Source: an uncultured Pseudomonadota bacterium
GTDB lineage: Bacteria > Pseudomonadota > Gammaproteobacteria > Competibacterales > Competibacteraceae
Reading direction: 5' to 3'
Length of the DNA: 56,564 nucleotides
Assembly (NCBI GenBank): GCA_903844665.1
Contig: CAIMUS010000317.1
Coordinates: 1-56,564, forward strand
Shown: piece after piece, positions 5,634 through 15,703 of the stretch
Layout of the letters: every line of letters starts with the position of its first letter
Position numbering within the stretch: the stretch's first letter is position 1
Program-made: the position numbers and the translations under genes
Notes under the pieces: model-generated
What the model was told of the DNA's origin: nothing
Database searches by the model: none
The model's input: the letters and a program-made list of their open reading frames with translations, nothing else

Positions 5634-6698
5634 TCATGCCGATGCGAGCAAACAATTTGCGTACGTACCTTCATCAATTGCCGCCTCGTAGAGTAGTTCA
5701 ACACACTCTGCCTGGCCAGTCGCGATTGGGTTCGGATCACGGCGGACCCTCTGAGATGTCAATCGCGGTGGGTCGAGCGAGAACACCCTGTCAGCTCGCG
5801 GGCCAAGCCAGAGCTGGAAGTTGTGGAGCAATGGCCAACTGTCTGGAGGAAGGTTCGAGACACCCTCGATGAAGAGGAACTTCAAGACAAGGCGGAGCCT
5901 CGCGCCTCGAAGGTCTGCGAGATTCCAGTTCATTGGCTGGTGCACGGGGTCAGCAACGAGTTTGAAGACGTGATCGACAAGTACGCTGCTGTCAAGAGCA
6001 AGAACGTCGCCGATTTCGTGGGTTTTGGGAGCGTTGATAAGCCGCACCGACTTGTTCGGTGATGGGCCTCCGTCGGCTTTGGGAAACGTCACCTCGAACT
6101 CAACGCTCGGAACGGCAAGCAAAGGGTGGTTCCTCCCCTTCGCGTCTGCGATGGCGCCTCGCGTGAGGGCGGAGACGGTGTGGCTGACTTCGCGCTGAAA
6201 TGGGTTGTAGCCAGGTTGCTCTTGCTTGAAGAACCCGGCCCGCGCTATGGCGCCGTCTGCGTACTCAATGTAGCCGCTCTGGTGAAAGACTCGACCCTTG
6301 GAAACTCCGGGAGGTAGGCCGACAGGTGGAGGCGGCAGCGGTTTGTCAGGCGAGAAAGCGCGGAAGCCTGCTGCGCTCTCAAAAAGGCTCGCCAAGTCCT
6401 CGTCAGTTGCCTCCATCTTGAGCGACAAGAAGAGCCCACATGGAAATAGAGGAGCGTGGATTGCACGGACATCCCGTTGAATCTCTGTGAGTCCGTCCTC
6501 TACTCGCTGTTGCTTGCGGACTCGGTACCACTGCGCTACCAGCCAACTCATGAAGAAGAATGTCGGACCGAAGACGTTGACGACCTCGCGGACCGTCCAC
6601 TTTGCGAACGGGCGATCAAGAAAGTTGTACGCGGTCCAGGCCACGCCAAGCAGAAGCGGGAGCCAGAACTCGCGAAGCAGCTGGAGGATGACTCTCAT
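5634..6698 (-). CDS. integron-cassette membrane protein of unknown function
   Basis: A 354-residue protein with two N-terminal membrane helices (LLLGVAWTAYNFL about residues 16-28, and VFGPTFFFMSWLVAQWY about 42-58) followed by a large soluble domain rich in Pro and Phe. The domain contains a LPPPPVGLPPG proline stretch near residue 122 and a DVLALDSSVLVDHVFKLV segment. I recognise no family. The stop codon abuts the attC site, and the start ATG is preceded by TTTAGGCGTC, close to a recombined core site. The gene therefore looks like a cassette inserted as a unit. Codon use is less biased than in core neighbours. Function unknown. Confidence 0.75.
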   Translation of the reverse strand: MRVILQLLREFWLPLLLGVAWTAYNFLDRPFAKWTVREVVNVFGPTFFFMSWLVAQWYRVRKQQRVEDGLTEIQRDVRAIHAPLFPCGLFLSLKMEATDEDLASLFESAAGFRAFSPDKPLPPPPVGLPPGVSKGRVFHQSGYIEYADGAIARAGFFKQEQPGYNPFQREVSHTVSALTRGAIADAKGRNHPLLAVPSVEFEVTFPKADGGPSPNKSVRLINAPKTHEIGDVLALDSSVLVDHVFKLVADPVHQPMNWNLADLRGARLRLVLKFLFIEGVSNLPPDSWPLLHNFQLWLGPRADRVFSLDPPRLTSQRVRRDPNPIATGQAECVELLYEAAIDEGTYANCLLASA

Positions 6699-6856
6699 GA
6701 CGCCTAAACAAGTGATTAAATGGCTTCTGTATATCTACGTCTCCCGACCAGGGCACAGCTGGTGCACAGTCTAACGTAGTATTTTAGCATTCTACCGCAC
6801 GCCGAGAGGGAAGCATCCAGGTAACGGGGGAACATTGGACAAGTTGTAGCCTGATC

Positions 6857-8266
6857 TCACCCCGCCGCCTGCGAAAAACTGGTTTCGATCAATTGCGCCA
6901 GCGTTTCCCTGGCGGTCAGCCGGCCGATATCCGATCCCAGCATCTCCGGCGCCGCCCCGTTCAGGCGCGACCAGGCGGGATTGACTTTGGCGTTTTCCAG
7001 CACCGGCGGCAGGCGATAACCGGTCCAGGCTTTATCGAGCGTCTTGGCGTTGAGCCGGATCTTTTCCTGGCTGGCATGGCCGCGCCGGAACAAGGCCCGC
7101 ACCAGTTCGATCTGCCGCACCGCCAGCAGCCGCAGGGTTTCATCGTTGACCCGCAGTTCGGTAAAACCGCGGAAGTAATCCGCCAAGCGCTTGCCGTGAG
7201 TGCGCGAGCCGTCCAGCAGCGCGCCGATGGTCGCGCCGATAGCCGCGCCGGCGCCCAGCGAGGCGCCGCCGACCGCCGCATCGATGGCCAGTCCCGCCAC
7301 CGCCCCGGCAGCCGCTCCCCGACTGGCCCGCACGCCGAACTGCTTCAGCGAGGCCGGATTGAACAGATCGATTCCCCACTGGCCGTCTTTGATCGGCAGG
7401 GTCTCCATAGCATAGTCGTCCAGCCGGAACCGGAACAGCTCCAGCAGGGCGTCCACGCCCTGCTGCTCACGCTCGCGCACCCGCTGCTTGAGCGCCGCCA
7501 TCGCGGCGTTCTTATCGATATCCATCGGCAGGATGATCCGGTACGCCGCCACATCCAGCAGCAACTCGGCCAACACTTCCGCCGAGGTGCGGTTCAAGAT
7601 GGTCCGCTGCCGCTGGCGGTCGTCGATCACCGCTTGCAGCGTGTGGTAGAACTTATCCAGCAGGGTCTGCGTCTTCTCGAACAGCCGCCTCTCGCCGTAT
7701 TCATCGACCACCACCGTATCGAATTCCACCACCGCATGCAGATTGACCTTGGCCAGATGTTCGCGCCACTCGGCCGTTTTCGCCACCGAACTGGCGATGA
7801 AATTCAGCACCGGCACCACCGGCTTGGTGCAGCGGGCCAGAATCTCCAGCTCGTCCCGATGCTTGGCCATGATCCGGTCGCGCGCATCGATCACATACAG
7901 GGCGATATCCGAGGCCAACACCTGCCGCAAAGCCTTGGCTTCCTGTTCGAATTCACCCTTGACCTTCGCCGCCGGACTGGCGAGAAACTGCTCGATCAAT
8001 TCGATGCCATAACGGCGCCGCCCGCCGTTCAGCCTGTCCAGCAATTCCAGCAGACCGATGGAATCCTCCAGTCCGGGCGTATCGTACAGCTCGATCGATG
8101 GCGCGCCGTCCACCAGCAGCGAGACGCCTTCCACATGGCGGGTGGTGGCGGGACGGTTGGAGATGGCGCCGAAACCGGCGTTACGGGTGAGGGTGCGCAG
8201 CAGCGAGGTCTTGCCGGTGTTGGTATGGCCGACCACGGCGACTTTGAGGACAGGCAGGCGTTTCAT
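6857..8266 (-). CDS. DUF3482 GTPase
   Basis: A 469-residue protein that starts with an Era/Obg-type G domain: P-loop GHTNTGKTS at residues 13-21, switch DTPGLED, and LNFIASS where the usual NKxD base-recognition motif would lie. The C-terminal part is DUF3482, with a Gly/Ala-rich hydrophobic hairpin (GAVAGLAIDAAVGGAS) that could insert into a membrane. The ATG at 8266 overlaps the stop of the upstream DUF2868 gene in an ATGA junction, so I reject the longer upstream frame. DUF2868 and DUF3482 genes travel together in proteobacteria. Their biochemical role is not established as far as I know; a membrane-remodelling or stress role is inference. Confidence 0.85.
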   Translation of the reverse strand: MKRLPVLKVAVVGHTNTGKTSLLRTLTRNAGFGAISNRPATTRHVEGVSLLVDGAPSIELYDTPGLEDSIGLLELLDRLNGGRRRYGIELIEQFLASPAAKVKGEFEQEAKALRQVLASDIALYVIDARDRIMAKHRDELEILARCTKPVVPVLNFIASSVAKTAEWREHLAKVNLHAVVEFDTVVVDEYGERRLFEKTQTLLDKFYHTLQAVIDDRQRQRTILNRTSAEVLAELLLDVAAYRIILPMDIDKNAAMAALKQRVREREQQGVDALLELFRFRLDDYAMETLPIKDGQWGIDLFNPASLKQFGVRASRGAAAGAVAGLAIDAAVGGASLGAGAAIGATIGALLDGSRTHGKRLADYFRGFTELRVNDETLRLLAVRQIELVRALFRRGHASQEKIRLNAKTLDKAWTGYRLPPVLENAKVNPAWSRLNGAAPEMLGSDIGRLTARETLAQLIETSFSQAAG

Positions 8267-10443
8267 GGCTGCCCCTCCGCCCGACCGGCTTGATCGAAGC
8301 GTTGGCGCAGTTCTTCCAGCCACTGGCGCACGGCTGCCGCATCGTGCAGTTCCGGCGGGTCGCCATCGCCGGCCACCCGGTCGATGATCCGGGTGATCGC
8401 CGCTTCAGGACGGCCCTGCAATTCCAGCACGATGGCGAACAGCGCCGCGCCCATAACGGTGGTGCTGAAATCGGGCGGCGCCGGATTGGAATCCGCCTTG
8501 GCGGCGGGCTTGGCCAAGGCGCCCACGACCGCGCCGAGTCCGGTCCAGAGAGGCAGGGAAGCGATGGCCGCCGGGGCGACCAGGGTCGCGGCGGCGATGC
8601 AACTCATTGCCCCGGCCACCGCGCCCGCCGTCGCCCAGCGCGGATTGAGCCGCAACCGCGCCGGCAACAGCTCGAGCATCTGCTGGGCGCCGGTTTTGAC
8701 CTGGGCGAGCATATCGCCGTCGGGCTTGAACGGCAGTTTCAGCAGGGAGCGCCAGTCGGGACGGATATGGTCATAAAGCGCCGCGATAGCCTGGTTCAAT
8801 TCGGCCTGTTGCTTGGGATCGGGCGCCTCTTTCCAGCGTCCGGCATGCTCGACGATCAGGGCGAAAGCCCGATCCAGATGGGAAACAGGAGGCGGAGCGG
8901 CGACTTTTCCGCCCAGCAGCGCCGCCAGTCGGGTACGGCTGGTTTCCGTCAAATGTTCCAGGTCGGCATCGATTACCTGATCTCCGGCAATGGCCGCGTC
9001 GGCGGCCATCTGTTGCCAGTCGTTGAAACGCTCCTCCACCTCGTCCAGGGGACCACGTTCCCGCAGGCGTTGGCCGTCGGTCAGCAGGATGACCAGCGGC
9101 GCGCTGGCAGTCTGGCCCAACTCGCTCAAGAAATTGCGGACGCCACGGTCGGGCGTGGTCGTCACCGAGCAGACGATGGCGATCAAGCGCGGCGGGGTAG
9201 GGGCCGAACGGACCTGTTCCAGCACGCGATGACGATCATCGCGGCTGTCCACGAAACCCAGATCCAGCCATTCCACCCCGGTCAGCGGCGGCGGCCAGGG
9301 GGAACCGGGCGGTTCGATCTCGAAGCCCATGATCGCCGTGGGACCGTAAGCCAGGGCGGACACGGGTCGTTGTACCGGCGGGGCCTGGCGGGTTTCGGGC
9401 AGGCCCCGATAGGGATCGACCACACCGATGGCTTGGGAGGCGGGCAACAGGCGGGGATGCAGGCGGGCATAACCGGGCAGGGTGGTGTCCAGCCGGAATT
9501 TTCGGCAGGCCCGGCGGCGGGCGAACACGCACAACGCCAACAGGGCAAGGCGCGGCAGGATGCCGTAGGCGACGATGCTGCCGATCAGCAAACCCGACCA
9601 GGCTTCGCGCGATTCCGCCGGCGGCTGGCCTTGGCCGGTCCAGTGGCTGGCGGCGATCTGCTGATTGTCCGGGGTGGTGAAGCCCAGCGCTTCCGGCGCG
9701 CTGGCGATAGCGCGGGTGAGGGCGACATAGGAGCGATCGGACAGGATGGTCGTTTCCCAGGCGAAGGTATATTGCTTGATGCTGAGAATCCAGATCACCA
9801 GCACCAGACAGCCGCAGAGAAAGGTCAGCCACAGGCCATGGCTGATGGCGCTCAGGGTCCAGCGACCGATAGAGGTATGGGTATAGATCGAGCCGACTGC
9901 CCGCAAGGCCGGCACATGCAGCGGCCCTTTATAAAGCCATTGGGTGACTTTGCGGCCCAGTTGAAAGACGACATTGCCGAGAGAGGCGGTAGGCATCGCC
10001 TTGGGCTTCATGAAAATCAGCGCCAGCCACACCAGCAACATGATGATCTGCAAGCCCAGCAGGCTGCCGAGCACCCAGAAAAAGTTCATGACCGGCCCGT
10101 CGGTGGGCGAGCCCAGCGTCACCTTGGCGGTGGTGGCGCCGGTGAAAAAGATCACGATCAGGCCGATGATCAGGGCGATCCGAAAAGCCGTATGCAGATG
10201 ATGCAGGGCCTGCCACAAATCGGGTGCGATCGGCAAAGCGCAAGCGCGGACGATCAGTCGATGTTCCAGATCGCCATCGGCGGCCACGGCGGCGGCATCG
10301 GCTTGCGGCGAGGTCAGGGGAGCGCCCTGACTGTCTTCGTACAGGCGCACCGTTTCGGTGAGCAGGCGCTGCTCGAAGCCGACGGGCGCTTGGATCAAAT
10401 CGGTGAACGAGGCGGATGGCGCGGTGTGTTTCAGCTTAGGCAT
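8263..10443 (-). CDS. DUF2868 membrane protein
   Basis: A 726-residue protein with an N-terminal soluble part, then about four membrane helices between residues 90 and 310 (IALIIGLIVIFFTG, LLGLQIIMLLVWLALIF, LWLTFLCGCLVLVIWIL, LLIGSIVAYGILPRLALLALCVF). A soluble domain follows, with LDLGFVDSRDD and VTTTPDRGVRNFL motifs, and a late hydrophobic pair near residues 630-670. The start is the ATG at 10443; a TTG just before it is also possible. No Shine-Dalgarno sequence is seen, since a heptanucleotide array begins four bases upstream. It forms a coupled pair with the DUF3482 GTPase. The family has no firm function. Confidence 0.85.
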   Translation of the reverse strand: MPKLKHTAPSASFTDLIQAPVGFEQRLLTETVRLYEDSQGAPLTSPQADAAAVAADGDLEHRLIVRACALPIAPDLWQALHHLHTAFRIALIIGLIVIFFTGATTAKVTLGSPTDGPVMNFFWVLGSLLGLQIIMLLVWLALIFMKPKAMPTASLGNVVFQLGRKVTQWLYKGPLHVPALRAVGSIYTHTSIGRWTLSAISHGLWLTFLCGCLVLVIWILSIKQYTFAWETTILSDRSYVALTRAIASAPEALGFTTPDNQQIAASHWTGQGQPPAESREAWSGLLIGSIVAYGILPRLALLALCVFARRRACRKFRLDTTLPGYARLHPRLLPASQAIGVVDPYRGLPETRQAPPVQRPVSALAYGPTAIMGFEIEPPGSPWPPPLTGVEWLDLGFVDSRDDRHRVLEQVRSAPTPPRLIAIVCSVTTTPDRGVRNFLSELGQTASAPLVILLTDGQRLRERGPLDEVEERFNDWQQMAADAAIAGDQVIDADLEHLTETSRTRLAALLGGKVAAPPPVSHLDRAFALIVEHAGRWKEAPDPKQQAELNQAIAALYDHIRPDWRSLLKLPFKPDGDMLAQVKTGAQQMLELLPARLRLNPRWATAGAVAGAMSCIAAATLVAPAAIASLPLWTGLGAVVGALAKPAAKADSNPAPPDFSTTVMGAALFAIVLELQGRPEAAITRIIDRVAGDGDPPELHDAAAVRQWLEELRQRFDQAGRAEGQP

Positions 10444-10446
10444 CAA

Positions 10447-10995: not shown

Positions 10996-13875
10996 ATGAC
11001 ACCAGGGTCGGAACTGCTGCACCTTCATCTATTCCTGTCTTCGCCTGGCGACGTGACCGACGAGCGCGCACCGGCCAGAGAGGTCATCGAACGAATCCAA
11101 AGCGAACGCGCCCATCGTGACCGGCTACGGCTGGAGATCGTCGCCTGGGACAAGCCGGGCGCAGGTACGGCGATGCCGGCCCATCTGGAACCACAAGCGG
11201 CGCTGGATAAGGGACTGCTGAAGCCTTCCGCCTGCGAGATCGTCATCGTCATTTTCGGCTATCGCATGGGTACGCCTCTGTCGGAGAAGTATCACAAGCC
11301 GAATGGCGAACGCTACTGGTCGGGTACGGAATATGAATTTCTGGATGCCTTGACCGCCGCCAGGCAACAAGGAATTCCCGAGGTGCTGGTCTACCGCAAG
11401 CAGGGCGCTCCCGATGTCAACGCCGCCGATTCCCAGCGCAAAGAGAAACTGGAGCAGTGGGATCGGGTGGAAACCTTTTTTGCCGGTTTCAAAAACGCCG
11501 ATGGCTCATTCGGGAGTTACTACAAGACCTACGCCACACTGACTCAGTTCAAGGAGATGCTCGACGAGGATCTCCGCGACATCGTGGCCCGCTATCTGGA
11601 AAAGCAGGCTCCCCCTGCCAATGTACCGCCTCCCGTTGAAGAACCCGTTGAAGAACCCGCTGAAGAACCGGTCTGGCATGAACCACCCTATCCGGGATTG
11701 CGTGCTTTCCGAGTGGACGAAGCGCCTATTTTCTTCGGTCGTGACCGGGAGACGGACGAGTTGGTGGAGAAACTGAGCGATCCGCGTAATCGCCTGATCG
11801 TTGTCGTGGGCGCTTCGGGTTCCGGTAAGTCATCACTGGTGGCGGCAGGTCTGTTGCCGCGTTTGCAGAACAATGCCGTGCCGGGCAGCCAGGACTGGAT
11901 TCTGGATATCCGGTTTACACCGGGCGAGGTGGGCGACAATGCATTGATAGCACTGGTCACCGCGCTAAGAGCCTGTACAAAAACTCCCTCCCCCCTTGTG
12001 GGGGAGGGTTGGGGTGGGGGGTGGAAATCGCCGCGAGAACTGGCGGATGAACTCGCTACGCATCCCGAAGCATTCGGCGAACTGGTCGAGCTTTTACTGA
12101 AGGGTCGGGACGATTGGGCGGAACTGCTGCTGTTTATCGATCAGTTCGAGGAACTGTTCACTCTGGTGGCTCCCCGGCATCAAGGGCCGTTCATCGCACT
12201 GCTGGCGGTGGCTGCGAAGACGCCGAGGGTGCGCATCGTGGCGACGCTGAGGGCAGACTTTTTCGAAGCCAATGTGCAGCGGCCCGAACTGGCGGAACTG
12301 CTGCGCAACGCCACCTTCCCACTGGCGGCTCCAGTTACCTTGGATGAGATGATCACCGGACCGGCGAAGCGGGCCGGACTGACTTTCGAGAAGGGACTGG
12401 TGGCGCAGATTCGGCAAGATACCGGCGCGGAACCCGGCGCTTTGGCGCTGATGGCCTGCGCCTTGGCTGAACTGTATGACCGGCGCCGCGATGGGGTGCT
12501 GACTCAGGCGGCATATCACAGTTTCGATGGCGTGCAAGGTGTGATCCGCAAGCGGGCGGGTGAAACCTACGAGAAACTTGATGATGGCGCTAAATCGGCT
12601 TTCGACCGGGTTTTCAACGAACTGGTGGAAGTGGACCCGGCCAGCGGCACTCCCACGCGCAAGCGGGCGCGGCGCAGCGGTTTCGAGACATCGCCTGCCG
12701 CTTTGAAATTCATCGATGCCTTTACCCAGGCTCGTCTGCTGGTTTGCAGCGAGGATGTGGTGGAGGTGGCCCACGAGAAGCTGTTCACCGCCTGGAAAAC
12801 GCTGAGCGACTGGATCGAAACTCATCGCGAGCAACTTAAGGTGGGACAGGACCTGGAGGAGGCGGCTCAGGAGTGGCAGGCCATCGGCAAACACTGGTCG
12901 GGACTGGCTTCGGGCACGAGGCTCAAGCGTTACTGCCAGGCTATCAACCCTTCCGCTCTGGCTGGCAGTTTTCTTCAGGCCAGCCGGCGGCGCTTGTGGA
13001 CTCAGCGGGGTTTGGCGGGCTTTGCTGCTTCGCTGGCGGTGGCGGTTTTTATCGGGGCGTTCTGGCTTTATGCCAATGGCCTGACCATGAAGCATGGAAC
13101 CTCGATGCTGCTTGCCGCCGTGAGTCTCTACCACGTCGGTGAGCCGGAGATGGTCGAGATTCCTGCCGGTGAGTTCTGGATGGGGTCGGGTGATGACGAT
13201 AAGGAAGCCTACGATAGTGAGAAACCTCGTCATAAAGTCACTATTGCGAAATTTGCCATCGGTAAATACGAGGTTACTTTCGACGAATACGATCAGTTTG
13301 CTTATGCTACGGGACAACCGCTGCCCGGTGATCAGGGTTGGGGGCGGGGTCGGCGTCCGGTGATCAACGTCTCCTGGAAGGATGCCGTGGCCTATGCGGA
13401 ATGGCTCTCCGGGATGACTGGTAAGCGGTATCGATTGCCGACGGAGGCGGAGTGGGAGTATACGGCACGGGCGGGTAGCGAGTCTTCGCGGTTTTGGGGC
13501 GATGATCCGAAGCAGGCTTGTCAGTATGCCAATGTAGCGGATCAAAGTTTCCGTCGTTATGGTTATTCTGGAGATATTCATGAGTGTGATGATAGTCAGC
13601 CTGTCACGGCTGAGGTAGGTCTCTTCAAGGCCAACAGCTTTGGCTTGTATGACATGCTGGGCAATGTCTGGGAATGGGTGCAGGATTCCTGGCATGACAG
13701 TTATAAAGGTGCTCCTGACGATGGTTCAGTTTGGAAGGGAGAGGAGGGCGGTCCCCGGTTGGTGCGGGGCGGCTCGTGGTACGGCGTGCCGCGCGGGGTG
13801 CGCGGGGCTGCGCGCCTCAGTACCCAGCCGCACGGGCGGGACAGCGACCTGGGTTTTCGCCTGGCCAGGACCTAA
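10996..13875 (+). CDS. DUF4062-STAND ATPase-TM-FGE-like protein with DGR-like variable C-terminus
   Basis: A 959-residue multidomain protein. Residues about 7-150 are DUF4062 (LHLFLSSPGDVTDER start). A Pro/Glu linker (about 207-232) leads to an nSTAND1-type ATPase: entry motif YPGLRAF, Walker A GASGSGKSS at 272-280, Walker B LLLFIDQFEE at about 377-386. One membrane helix lies near 672-693. Residues about 717-958 are a formylglycine-generating-enzyme-like (C-type lectin) domain with VSWKDAVAYAEWLS and GNVWEWVQDSW. The two catalytic Cys expected after GGSW are absent, so it probably binds rather than catalyses. AAGGAG precedes the start. STAND proteins act as ligand-triggered signalling switches, often in conflict systems; this role is inferred. 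Confidence 0.9.
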   Translation: MTPGSELLHLHLFLSSPGDVTDERAPAREVIERIQSERAHRDRLRLEIVAWDKPGAGTAMPAHLEPQAALDKGLLKPSACEIVIVIFGYRMGTPLSEKYHKPNGERYWSGTEYEFLDALTAARQQGIPEVLVYRKQGAPDVNAADSQRKEKLEQWDRVETFFAGFKNADGSFGSYYKTYATLTQFKEMLDEDLRDIVARYLEKQAPPANVPPPVEEPVEEPAEEPVWHEPPYPGLRAFRVDEAPIFFGRDRETDELVEKLSDPRNRLIVVVGASGSGKSSLVAAGLLPRLQNNAVPGSQDWILDIRFTPGEVGDNALIALVTALRACTKTPSPLVGEGWGGGWKSPRELADELATHPEAFGELVELLLKGRDDWAELLLFIDQFEELFTLVAPRHQGPFIALLAVAAKTPRVRIVATLRADFFEANVQRPELAELLRNATFPLAAPVTLDEMITGPAKRAGLTFEKGLVAQIRQDTGAEPGALALMACALAELYDRRRDGVLTQAAYHSFDGVQGVIRKRAGETYEKLDDGAKSAFDRVFNELVEVDPASGTPTRKRARRSGFETSPAALKFIDAFTQARLLVCSEDVVEVAHEKLFTAWKTLSDWIETHREQLKVGQDLEEAAQEWQAIGKHWSGLASGTRLKRYCQAINPSALAGSFLQASRRRLWTQRGLAGFAASLAVAVFIGAFWLYANGLTMKHGTSMLLAAVSLYHVGEPEMVEIPAGEFWMGSGDDDKEAYDSEKPRHKVTIAKFAIGKYEVTFDEYDQFAYATGQPLPGDQGWGRGRRPVINVSWKDAVAYAEWLSGMTGKRYRLPTEAEWEYTARAGSESSRFWGDDPKQACQYANVADQSFRRYGYSGDIHECDDSQPVTAEVGLFKANSFGLYDMLGNVWEWVQDSWHDSYKGAPDDGSVWKGEEGGPRLVRGGSWYGVPRGVRGAARLSTQPHGRDSDLGFRLART
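11984..12010. repeat. REP-like hairpin inside the STAND ATPase gene
   Basis: CCCTCCCCCC-TTGT-GGGGGAGGG is the core of a widespread intergenic palindrome, present also at 20823-20847. Here it lies in frame inside the ATPase domain, between Walker A and Walker B, adding about 15 residues that read SPLVGEGWGGGW. Confidence 0.8.
13780..13854 (+). other. putative DGR variable region (VR)
   Basis: The last 25 codons before GFRLART follow RGGSW, exactly where DGR-diversified C-type lectin domains carry their variable region. Eleven of these codons have the form NNC (TAC, GGC, CGC, CTC, ACC, CAC, GAC, AGC), the pattern left when AAC codons of a template repeat are mutated at adenines. No template repeat or reverse transcriptase is in the window. 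Confidence 0.5.
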
Positions 13876-13987
13876 CCCTTTGTTCTATGTTCTTTTTCCC
13901 TTTGCCGGGGGTCCAGGGGGCGGAGCTAACTGGCGATTTTGACAGGATACGCTATTATTGAATGGCATTTTATTTCAGGAGAAACCC

Positions 13988-14224
13988 ATGCAGGCTTTAC
14001 ACCGCATCGAACGTATCATAGGACAGCAGTTGATCCTTAATCTCCCCGCCTCACTGGAGGGCAAGCAAGTCGAAGTCATTGTGCGGGAACTGACGGGTGA
14101 AAATGGGACGGCTTTAATGCATGACCGTCGCCGGAGTCCGCCTCCCGCTCTCACAGGAAAAATGGTGCTTCAAGATGATTTGATTGCCCCGGCGGCGCCA
14201 GAGACGGATTGGGAAGCCTATTAG
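13988..14224 (+). CDS. antitoxin-like protein (DUF2281 type)
   Basis: A 78-residue protein preceding a PIN toxin. The start is the ATG at 13988, with AGGAGA seven bases upstream; an earlier in-frame start lies before the ribosome-binding site and is rejected. The sequence begins ALHRIERIIGQQLILNLPASLEGKQVEVIV, typical of small antitoxins with a beta-rich N-terminus such as DUF2281. The C-terminus ends in an acidic DWEAY that may contact the toxin. Only two bases separate it from the next start, so the genes are co-translated. Confidence 0.72.
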   Translation: MQALHRIERIIGQQLILNLPASLEGKQVEVIVRELTGENGTALMHDRRRSPPPALTGKMVLQDDLIAPAAPETDWEAY

Positions 14225-14226
14225 TC

Positions 14227-14616
14227 ATGGTGCTTGATACGCATATCTGGCTACGATGGCTGGCTGTCAGCAGTCAACCACTGCCGGCTGCAACAGTTGA
14301 CTGTATTGAGCAAACCGAGACCGTCATTATCTCAGCAATTTCCTTTTGGGAAGCGGCGCAACTGCACAAACGCGGGCGGATTAATTTGGGAATGGATTGG
14401 GCGGAGTGGCTACCACTTGCAGTTGCCGGTGCGAATGTCATCGTTTTACCGATTACAGAGACGATTGCAGCACGGGCGGCTTTCTTGCCAGAGCACCATC
14501 GTGACCCTGCCGATCGCCTCATTATTGCGACGGCGGTGGAATACGGGCTACCCCTGCTGAGTTTTGATGAACAGTTTGTGCATTACCGGGAGCTTGATGG
14601 CCTGTTGGTTAAATGA
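14227..14616 (+). CDS. PIN-domain toxin (VapC type)
   Basis: A 129-residue PIN-domain protein. It has the N-terminal active-site Asp in VLDTHIWLRW, a Glu in ISFWEAAQLHKRGRI (about residue 43), and the second acidic site in HHRDPADRLIIATA (about 92-105), followed by LLSFDEQF. PIN toxins of this group cleave RNA in a metal-dependent way. The chosen start follows the antitoxin stop by two bases; a longer frame overlaps the antitoxin. All key acids are present, so the module is probably active. Confidence 0.87.
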   Translation: MVLDTHIWLRWLAVSSQPLPAATVDCIEQTETVIISAISFWEAAQLHKRGRINLGMDWAEWLPLAVAGANVIVLPITETIAARAAFLPEHHRDPADRLIIATAVEYGLPLLSFDEQFVHYRELDGLLVK

Positions 14617-14632
14617 ACGCTGGGTAGTAGTT

Positions 14633-14722
14633 GTAGGCCGGAATAAGCGAAGCTTGCGGAGCGTTTCCGGCATCCCGGAAGCGCCGGAAACGGCCACCGT
14701 TGGTGGCCTTATTCCGGCCTAC
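14633..14722. repeat. palindromic repeat with long arms
   Basis: GTAGGCCGGAATAAG and CTTATTCCGGCCTAC form outer arms, with an inner inverted pair (CGTTTCCGGC / GCCGGAAACG). It separates the PIN toxin from the convergent Uma2 gene and could terminate both. Confidence 0.75.
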
Positions 14723-14731
14723 GGATGCTGC

Positions 14732-15205
14732 TTAGCTCAGAATATAAACCCTAGCGGGAAAACCAGGAACCAGCCTGGATTTTTCAATCCTGCCATTATC
14801 ATCGAAAAAGACCACTGCTCCTTTTTCATCACATACCCAGAACTCCTTAGCGCCAGCCAGAATATACAATTCCCTTTTCTCTTCGATTTCTTCGCCAGTA
14901 TTACTTAAGGATAACACCTCGATACAGATTTCAGGCGCAATCGGGCATTCGGCTTCAGGCGCAATCAATTTAAATCGTTCTTCCGAACACCAGGCGATAT
15001 CCGCAACTTTGGTGCCTTTTTGGGTCCGAATGGCGCATTCAGGCAGTACAATGCCTTTCTCCGGCAACAAACGCGCGATCTTTCCCTGGAATGCGGAATG
15101 ATAGACTTTGACCGGAGACATTAAAATCTGTCCCTTCTCATTAAGTTCAATTTTGAAAGGCAGATTCTGTAAACTTGGATGCTCACAAACTTCTTTCCAT
15201 TCCAT
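14732..15205 (-). CDS. Uma2 family endonuclease-like protein (DUF820), copy 1
   Basis: A 157-residue Uma2/DUF820 protein with a PD-(D/E)xK-type fold. The central segment has KVADIAWCSEERF and PEICIEVLSLSN, carrying the Asp and Glu of the restriction-like active site, and REL..AGAKEFWVCDEKG follows. Members are abundant in cyanobacteria and some proteobacteria, often near mobile DNA, but their substrate is not well known. A close paralogue lies at 23071-23556: both begin MEWKEVC and share QNLPFKIELNE, SPVKVYH and IAPEICIE. It stands alone on the minus strand beside TA genes. Confidence 0.8.
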   Translation of the reverse strand: MEWKEVCEHPSLQNLPFKIELNEKGQILMSPVKVYHSAFQGKIARLLPEKGIVLPECAIRTQKGTKVADIAWCSEERFKLIAPEAECPIAPEICIEVLSLSNTGEEIEEKRELYILAGAKEFWVCDEKGAVVFFDDNGRIEKSRLVPGFPARVYILS

Positions 15206-15289
15206 TTACCAGTCCTCTTAAAGTGTCGGGCAGTATCTGTAGGGTACGCTATGCGTACCGAGCCAGCGATAAAGTACGCGCAGCATATT

Positions 15290-15703
15290 TTACCCGGTTG
15301 ATTGTAGAAAAGCAGCCGGCTTTAGAATAGATATGCCCATGAAGGGATGCAACGCCAGCAAATCGCGGTCGCCTGTAATGATGATTGCTGCCTTACCATT
15401 CACTGCAACTTCCAGAAACTTATCATCCTTGGGGTCGCGGCAGGCTTGAATGCGCTGCAGAATAGCGACTTTCTCGCTGATACAGATCAGTTTTTCAATA
15501 AACGTCTGACGATCTTGCAGAGATACATAAGAATTAAATCGAGGCCGGGCGAGCACTTTAGCCAACTCTTCCAGTGTGGCGTCTGAAACCAGAAGAATCC
15601 CTTGATCGACCGCCAGTCGTATCGCCTGCGCCGGAATGGAATTCGGCAGCAGCAAGCGACTTACTAACGCATTAGTATCGACGACAAGGCGCGTTCGGCG
15701 CAT
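15290..15703 (-). CDS. PIN-domain toxin (COG1569 type)
   Basis: A 137-residue PIN protein. The N-terminal RLVVDTNALVSRLL supplies the first active-site Asp, EELAKVLARPRF the Glu, and CRDPKDDKFLEVA followed by IITGDRDLL the remaining acids. It matches the family annotated as putative toxin component, PIN family. Its ATG shares one base with the stop of the upstream Phd-like antitoxin. Probably a ribonuclease; length and motifs are complete. Confidence 0.86.
   Translation of the reverse strand: MRRTRLVVDTNALVSRLLLPNSIPAQAIRLAVDQGILLVSDATLEELAKVLARPRFNSYVSLQDRQTFIEKLICISEKVAILQRIQACRDPKDDKFLEVAVNGKAAIIITGDRDLLALHPFMGISILKPAAFLQSTG

Follow-up and report, generated by a model that had tools for sequence, protein, structure and literature searches.

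A predicted membrane-anchored nSTAND1 protein with a DUF4062-like head and a DGR-type variable FGE domain in an uncultured Competibacteraceae bacterium

The window analyzed here, a stretch of 56,564 nt from an uncultured member of the Competibacteraceae, carries a gene for a 959-aa receptor-like protein whose C-terminal end resembles the variable region (VR) of a DGR target, which raises the questions of whether this end was rewritten from a template repeat (TR) located elsewhere in the genome and what kind of receptor such a variable domain would serve. The gene, its domains, and its 3′ flank comprise the following features (window coordinates, strand):

10996..13875, +: gene for the 959-aa receptor-like protein (open reading frame; Pfam nSTAND1 and FGE)
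11017..11610, +: DUF4062-like TIR-fold domain, aa 8-205 (Pfam sub-threshold; 29-sequence alignment; AF2 pLDDT 87; TIR Z about 10)
11686..12891, +: nSTAND1 NTPase, aa 231-632, with P-loop GASGSGKSS at aa 272-280 (Pfam, 348 bits)
11991..12020, +: copy of a genome-wide repeat, in frame inside nSTAND1 (PSPLVGEGWGGG; repeat search of the genome)
13012..13071, +: transmembrane helix, about aa 673-692 (hydropathy; predicted orientation)
13141..13869, +: FGE/C-type-lectin-fold domain, non-catalytic, aa 716-958 (Pfam, 202 bits; AF2 model)
13765..13868, +: VR core with the constant 3′ end GGGTTTTCGCCTGGCCAG (alignment to the TR, C333:10284-10397)
13869..13910, +: pyrimidine-rich 3′ element overlapping the stop codon, common to VRs and absent after the TR
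13913..13933, +: degenerate inverted repeat (found as CCAGGGGGC-GAA-GCCCCCTGG behind some sister VRs)

The first-pass annotation of this DNA had joined DUF4062, a STAND ATPase, a membrane helix, and an FGE-like domain on one chain, and this layout was supported by the open reading frame and the Pfam nSTAND1 and FGE profiles, with DUF4062 sub-threshold and backed by alignment and fold. The nSTAND1 profile was matched together with its P-loop at 348 bits (cut-off 27.1), and the FGE-sulfatase profile covered aa 716-958 with 202 bits. The hydrophobic helix at aa 673-691 bears an Arg-rich flank on its N-side, and hydropathy combined with the positive-inside rule suggests that the STAND part is cytosolic and the FGE part lies outside. 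The proposal of a membrane-anchored STAND switch is well supported at the sequence level. The repeat within nSTAND1, present in 134 genome copies at up to 3 mismatches and missing from the paralogue on contig C239, might harm the domain, though the frame is open. No whole-protein orthologue was found in 38 family relatives at E 1e-100. Among 40 relatives, no other species of the genus turned up, and the VRs were compared within a single assembly.

Regarding the N-terminal head, it is named DUF4062-like because the window copy (12 bits, E 0.24) does not reach the Pfam DUF4062 cut-off of 24.7; the score is 24.5 bits in the C239 paralogue, which is 54% identical to the window protein over aa 5-660, and 64 bits in a relative from Nitrosomonas communis. 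When the AF2 model of aa 1-215 (pLDDT 87) was compared by VIA-align, plant and bacterial TIR domains ranked at the top (Z 10.0-10.4, rmsd 3.2-4.0, 127-141 aligned); of these, RPPT, AbTir, and RUN1 gave Z 10.2-10.4 and rmsd 3.5-4.0 with 133-141 aligned. Nucleoside deoxyribosyltransferases and the CMP N-glycosidase MilB came about 1 Z unit below the TIR domains. E114, in the motif SGTEYEFLDAL, is nearly invariant in the 29-sequence alignment and is a candidate catalytic Glu, putatively equivalent to KpSwz E97, so that both a TIR fold and a conserved Glu are found in the head. According to a 2026 preprint (PMC13174449), DUF4062 is a TIR-like NADase that has a catalytic Glu and shields E. coli from phages via abortive infection. 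The window head is a probable NADase effector, this activity being a predicted one.

The FGE fold of the C-terminal domain was recovered both by Pfam and by structure matching of an AF2 model (pLDDT 74, pTM 0.80, with the VR itself at low confidence), which matched PvdO, FGE enzymes, and TvpA (2y3c), a DGR variable protein of Treponema denticola. TvpA shares the FGE-type CLec fold with the window protein but is a surface lipoprotein without STAND or effector; its VR presumably lies at the same place as the window VR. The segment following RGGSW is YGVPRGVRGAAR. The catalytic Cys pair of FGE is absent, as had been claimed, there being no Cys at all in the C-terminal segment after RGGSW (RGGSWYGVPRGVRGAARLSTQPHGRDSDLGFRLART). 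The last 25 codons had also been called dominated by NNC codons; these make up 11 of the 25, so the wording was slightly strong. The underlying idea, adenine mutagenesis of AAC codons, agrees with the TR, whose codons at variable sites are mostly AAC, AGG, and GAC.

Evidence for a template was obtained from the genome (G000; 4.88 Mb, 348 contigs), in which a profile search gave RVT_1 matches at seven places. Four DGRs with an RT and distinct TRs occur in this one genome, on contigs C10, C96, C114, and C333 (loci L001, L002, L005, and L045). In the C10, C96, and C114 systems, 11-19 of the 21-27 TR adenines are altered in the VRs, as against 0-1 of the 77-85 remaining sites. The C333 locus is composed of a NACHT-FGE target (5984-8773), followed by bAvd (8792-9223; Pfam 1e-14), an RT with the motif IGNLTSQ (9207-10439), and the TR (10284-10397), which overlaps the 3′ end of the RT frame. 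The DGR RTs expected by the first-pass annotation were therefore present, together with a TR, that of C333, on the same scaffold as window 13765-13868. The TR inside the RT frame gives the C333 RT a C-terminal extension of ~58 aa, which the Thiohalocapsa RT described below does not have. The RTs on C195, C36, and C248 were rejected as DGRs, as they resemble group II intron-type RT pieces at contig ends; beside the fragment on C195, a TIR-like protein with a NACHT-like P-loop ATPase region, read by eye, is encoded at L003 3-1061 (− strand).

Over 104 aligned bases, the window VR differs from the C333 TR at 17 of 25 adenines and at 8 of 79 other sites (Fisher p=4e-8), and the changes are thus concentrated at template adenines, as the annotation had anticipated. 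All 8 non-A differences fall within the 24 non-A sites of adenine-bearing codons; the 48 sites in codons without a TR adenine are all unchanged. This confinement disfavors drift and would fit a sister TR whose codons differ at the variable sites. The exact non-adenine match that a cognate, current template would give was not seen with the C333 TR (8/79 differ). A strict A-to-N pattern derived from the window VR, run over the whole assembly with up to 3 mismatches, matched only itself and gave no exact cognate TR, while a scaffold search of the assembly returned the C333 TR as the sole TR, plus two VRs. Since the 8 non-A differences are confined to adenine-bearing codons and the assembly contains no better TR, the window VR was probably last copied from a sister of the C333 TR, one missing from the assembly. 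The window gene is a DGR-type target, though the present C333 TR is not its exact template. In the earlier description of a sensor "rapidly diversified in trans", diversification in trans is supported by the DGR RTs and the same-scaffold TR elsewhere in the genome and by the adenine-centered changes; current activity would be no more than a possibility, given the non-A differences and the degenerate 3′ inverted repeat.

The scaffold of the window VR recurs in seven other VRs of the genome. Compared with the C333 TR, six are near and the C239 copy is more diverged (changed adenines; changed non-A sites; head of the target, where read):

C107 VR: 19/25 A; 0/79 non-A
C333 cis VR: 16/25 A; 1/79 non-A; NACHT
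C132 VR: 14/25 A; 1/79 non-A; no recognized identity
C319 VR: 17/25 A; 3/79 non-A; caspase, Peptidase_C14
C156 VR: 15/25 A; 4/79 non-A; TIR and hydrophobic stretch
C59 VR: 17/25 A; 4/79 non-A; NACHT-like, partly read, by eye
C239 VR: 14/25 A; 16/79 non-A; DUF4062-nSTAND1

The adenine bias of these sister VRs ranges from p=2e-8 to 6e-16, with p=1e-3 for the older C239 copy. One additional base near a G run in the C333 cis VR and a frame break upstream in the C107 target may each be assembly errors. The window and C239 proteins carry the same DUF4062-nSTAND1 module with different FGE types, indicating that sensor and effector modules have been shuffled.

The VRs also share what follows them. A 42-nt pyrimidine-rich element is situated directly 3′ of the VRs in the window (13869-13910), on C107, C156, C239, and C333, and in genomes G014, G016, and G021, whereas the TR lacks it and is followed by other sequence. 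Among the VRs of this genome, the mean identity of the element is 0.70 against 0.55 when shuffled, and the likeness extends to the VRs of three related genomes; the coding DNA upstream of the VRs is less alike (0.62 against 0.56), and the likeness is lost by +85. Its 19-mer core, CTTTGATCTTTTTCCCTTT, occurs only four times in the genome at up to 2 mismatches, in every case directly behind a VR (C107, C156, C239, and the window). The element could act in cis as a retrohoming signal, or it could be left over from cassette shuffling. In BPP-1, a stem-loop after the IMH aids retrohoming (PMC12875486). A hairpin likewise stands behind some of the VRs here, its window form being degenerate (-5.1 kcal/mol vs. 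-12.5 at C333); a tie between hairpin loss and more non-A changes was considered and dropped, as the most changed VR, that of C239, is followed by a perfect hairpin. Our literature search found no paper joining DGRs with a polypyrimidine element. We tentatively entertain, as a conjecture with the balance against it, that one TR supplies a set of seven or more receptors at unlinked loci whose death effectors differ (NADase-like, TIR, caspase, and NACHT) and that the 42-nt element is a portable address tag recruiting any FGE gene as a trans target.

Among relatives elsewhere, 29 ORFs from the 80 best loci of GTDB genomes show the DUF4062-nSTAND1-FGE architecture. In Thiohalocapsa ALSabin.124 (L073), the same architecture forms a complete cis DGR with target, bAvd, RT, and TR; its RT is 63% identical to the C333 RT, and its repeat is changed at 6/23 A and 0/94 non-A. 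Adenine-biased repeats were also located near an Anaerolineae locus (L108; 22/35 A, 10/89 other) and a Nitrosomonas locus (L113; 20/35 A, 12/100 other), and no TR was detected within the fetched DNA near most other relatives. Among known systems, Dore et al. (2024) described DGR-varied nSTAND1/NACHT-CLec proteins as putative antigen sensors in Thiohalocapsa and other aggregating bacteria, with trans targets and several DGRs per genome (PMC10907252). The DGRs of Thiohalocapsa PB-PSB1 and clade 5D from that work are the closest known: they share with the window system a central nSTAND1/NACHT, a C-terminal FGE/CLec domain bearing the VR, the set of bAvd, RT, and TR, several DGRs per genome, trans targets, and, in some targets, a TM segment. 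In contrast, PB-PSB1 DGR 6 has an EAD8 adapter and a separate trypsin where the window protein carries its effector, a DUF4062 NADase-like head, within the one chain, and, unlike in PB-PSB1, one TR here matches at least seven targets with differing heads. Swarozyc (PMC13174449, 2026 preprint) resembles the window protein in its DUF4062-like TIR-fold head and conserved Glu motif; it senses the phage portal by an HTH/winged auxiliary domain and, as described, has no STAND, membrane helix, or DGR. Avs and bacterial NACHT proteins follow the same order of effector, STAND NTPase, and sensor, but the sensors described for Avs are repeat domains, such as TPR, by which conserved phage proteins are bound, as opposed to an FGE domain that is predicted outside and diversified by retrohoming. 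No paper joining a DGR with DUF4062 was found in the literature search; the effector-sensor pairing and the 42-nt pyrimidine-rich element after the VRs are what is new here.

We consider it likely, on balance, that the gene encodes a single-chain, membrane NLR-like receptor with a DGR-varied FGE sensor, an nSTAND1 switch, and an NADase effector. The FGE-fold domain would sit outside the inner membrane as the sensor, and its ligand-facing tip would have been rewritten by a C333-family DGR at another locus, through error-prone cDNA of the TR, random bases at adenines, and retrohoming into the VR. Binding of a ligand, possibly from phage or non-kin, may then release the nSTAND1 NTPase to oligomerize, which would cluster the N-terminal TIR-like DUF4062 domains and lead to NAD+ hydrolysis, with NAD+ loss arresting or killing the cell. 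The immune role proposed in the first-pass annotation draws on family knowledge and is retained in that sense as a presumed role. Such a protein unites two recent findings, the DUF4062 phage-sensing NADase and the DGR-varied STAND sensors. If active, the system could provide a near-adaptive set of receptors, with a single hypermutation template readjusting sensors that are connected to several kinds of cell-death effector, and the common 3′ element offers a concrete, testable candidate cis-signal by which DGRs find remote targets.

The alternatives to this receptor differ mainly in how the VR arose and in what the sensor is for. That the tail merely looks like a VR, as FGE C-termini vary, and reflects ordinary FGE/CLec family variation without a DGR would accord with the variable FGE tails of many lineages and with the relatives that have no TR in their fetched DNA; it is nevertheless refuted in the main, since the window VR shows a strong bias to the adenines of a genuine TR that lies next to an RT in this genome and six sister VRs are changed almost exclusively at A, and we regard it as very improbable. 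A retired target, diversified long ago by a C333-type DGR, since drifted, and now a fixed receptor or a decaying gene, deserves more weight while still being the less probable history, at perhaps one chance in a handful or slightly better. The window's 8/79 non-A differences exceed those of six of the seven sister VRs (0-4/79), its 3′ inverted repeat is the weakened form, and a repeat is inserted in the NTPase domain, all of which speak for retirement. Plain drift, however, would spread its changes, and all eight lie within adenine-bearing codons; the constant 5′ and 3′ ends are also perfect against the TR, and the ORF is open.

Somewhat less probable again is a signaling or adhesion receptor for kin or surface recognition, whose sensor would adjust a regulated response, with DUF4062 having no killing role. 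The predicted position of the sensor outside the cell would suit such a role, and work cited in PMC10907252 has argued that DGR targets of cyanobacteria are signaling proteins. The sister targets of the same TR, however, bear caspase, TIR, and NACHT heads, all of them defense or cell-death domains, and DUF4062 acts against phage in another setting (PMC13174449).

As for the genomic surroundings of the gene for this proposed receptor, no neighboring defense island was identified. On the opposite strand, an uncharacterized pair of adjoining genes for a DUF3482 GTPase and a DUF2868 protein is located at window 6857-10446 (−). Downstream, at window 13988-15703, lie a small ORF and a PIN-domain gene forming a toxin-antitoxin-like pair, as well as a Uma2 gene and another PIN gene, the latter accompanied by an antitoxin-like ORF.
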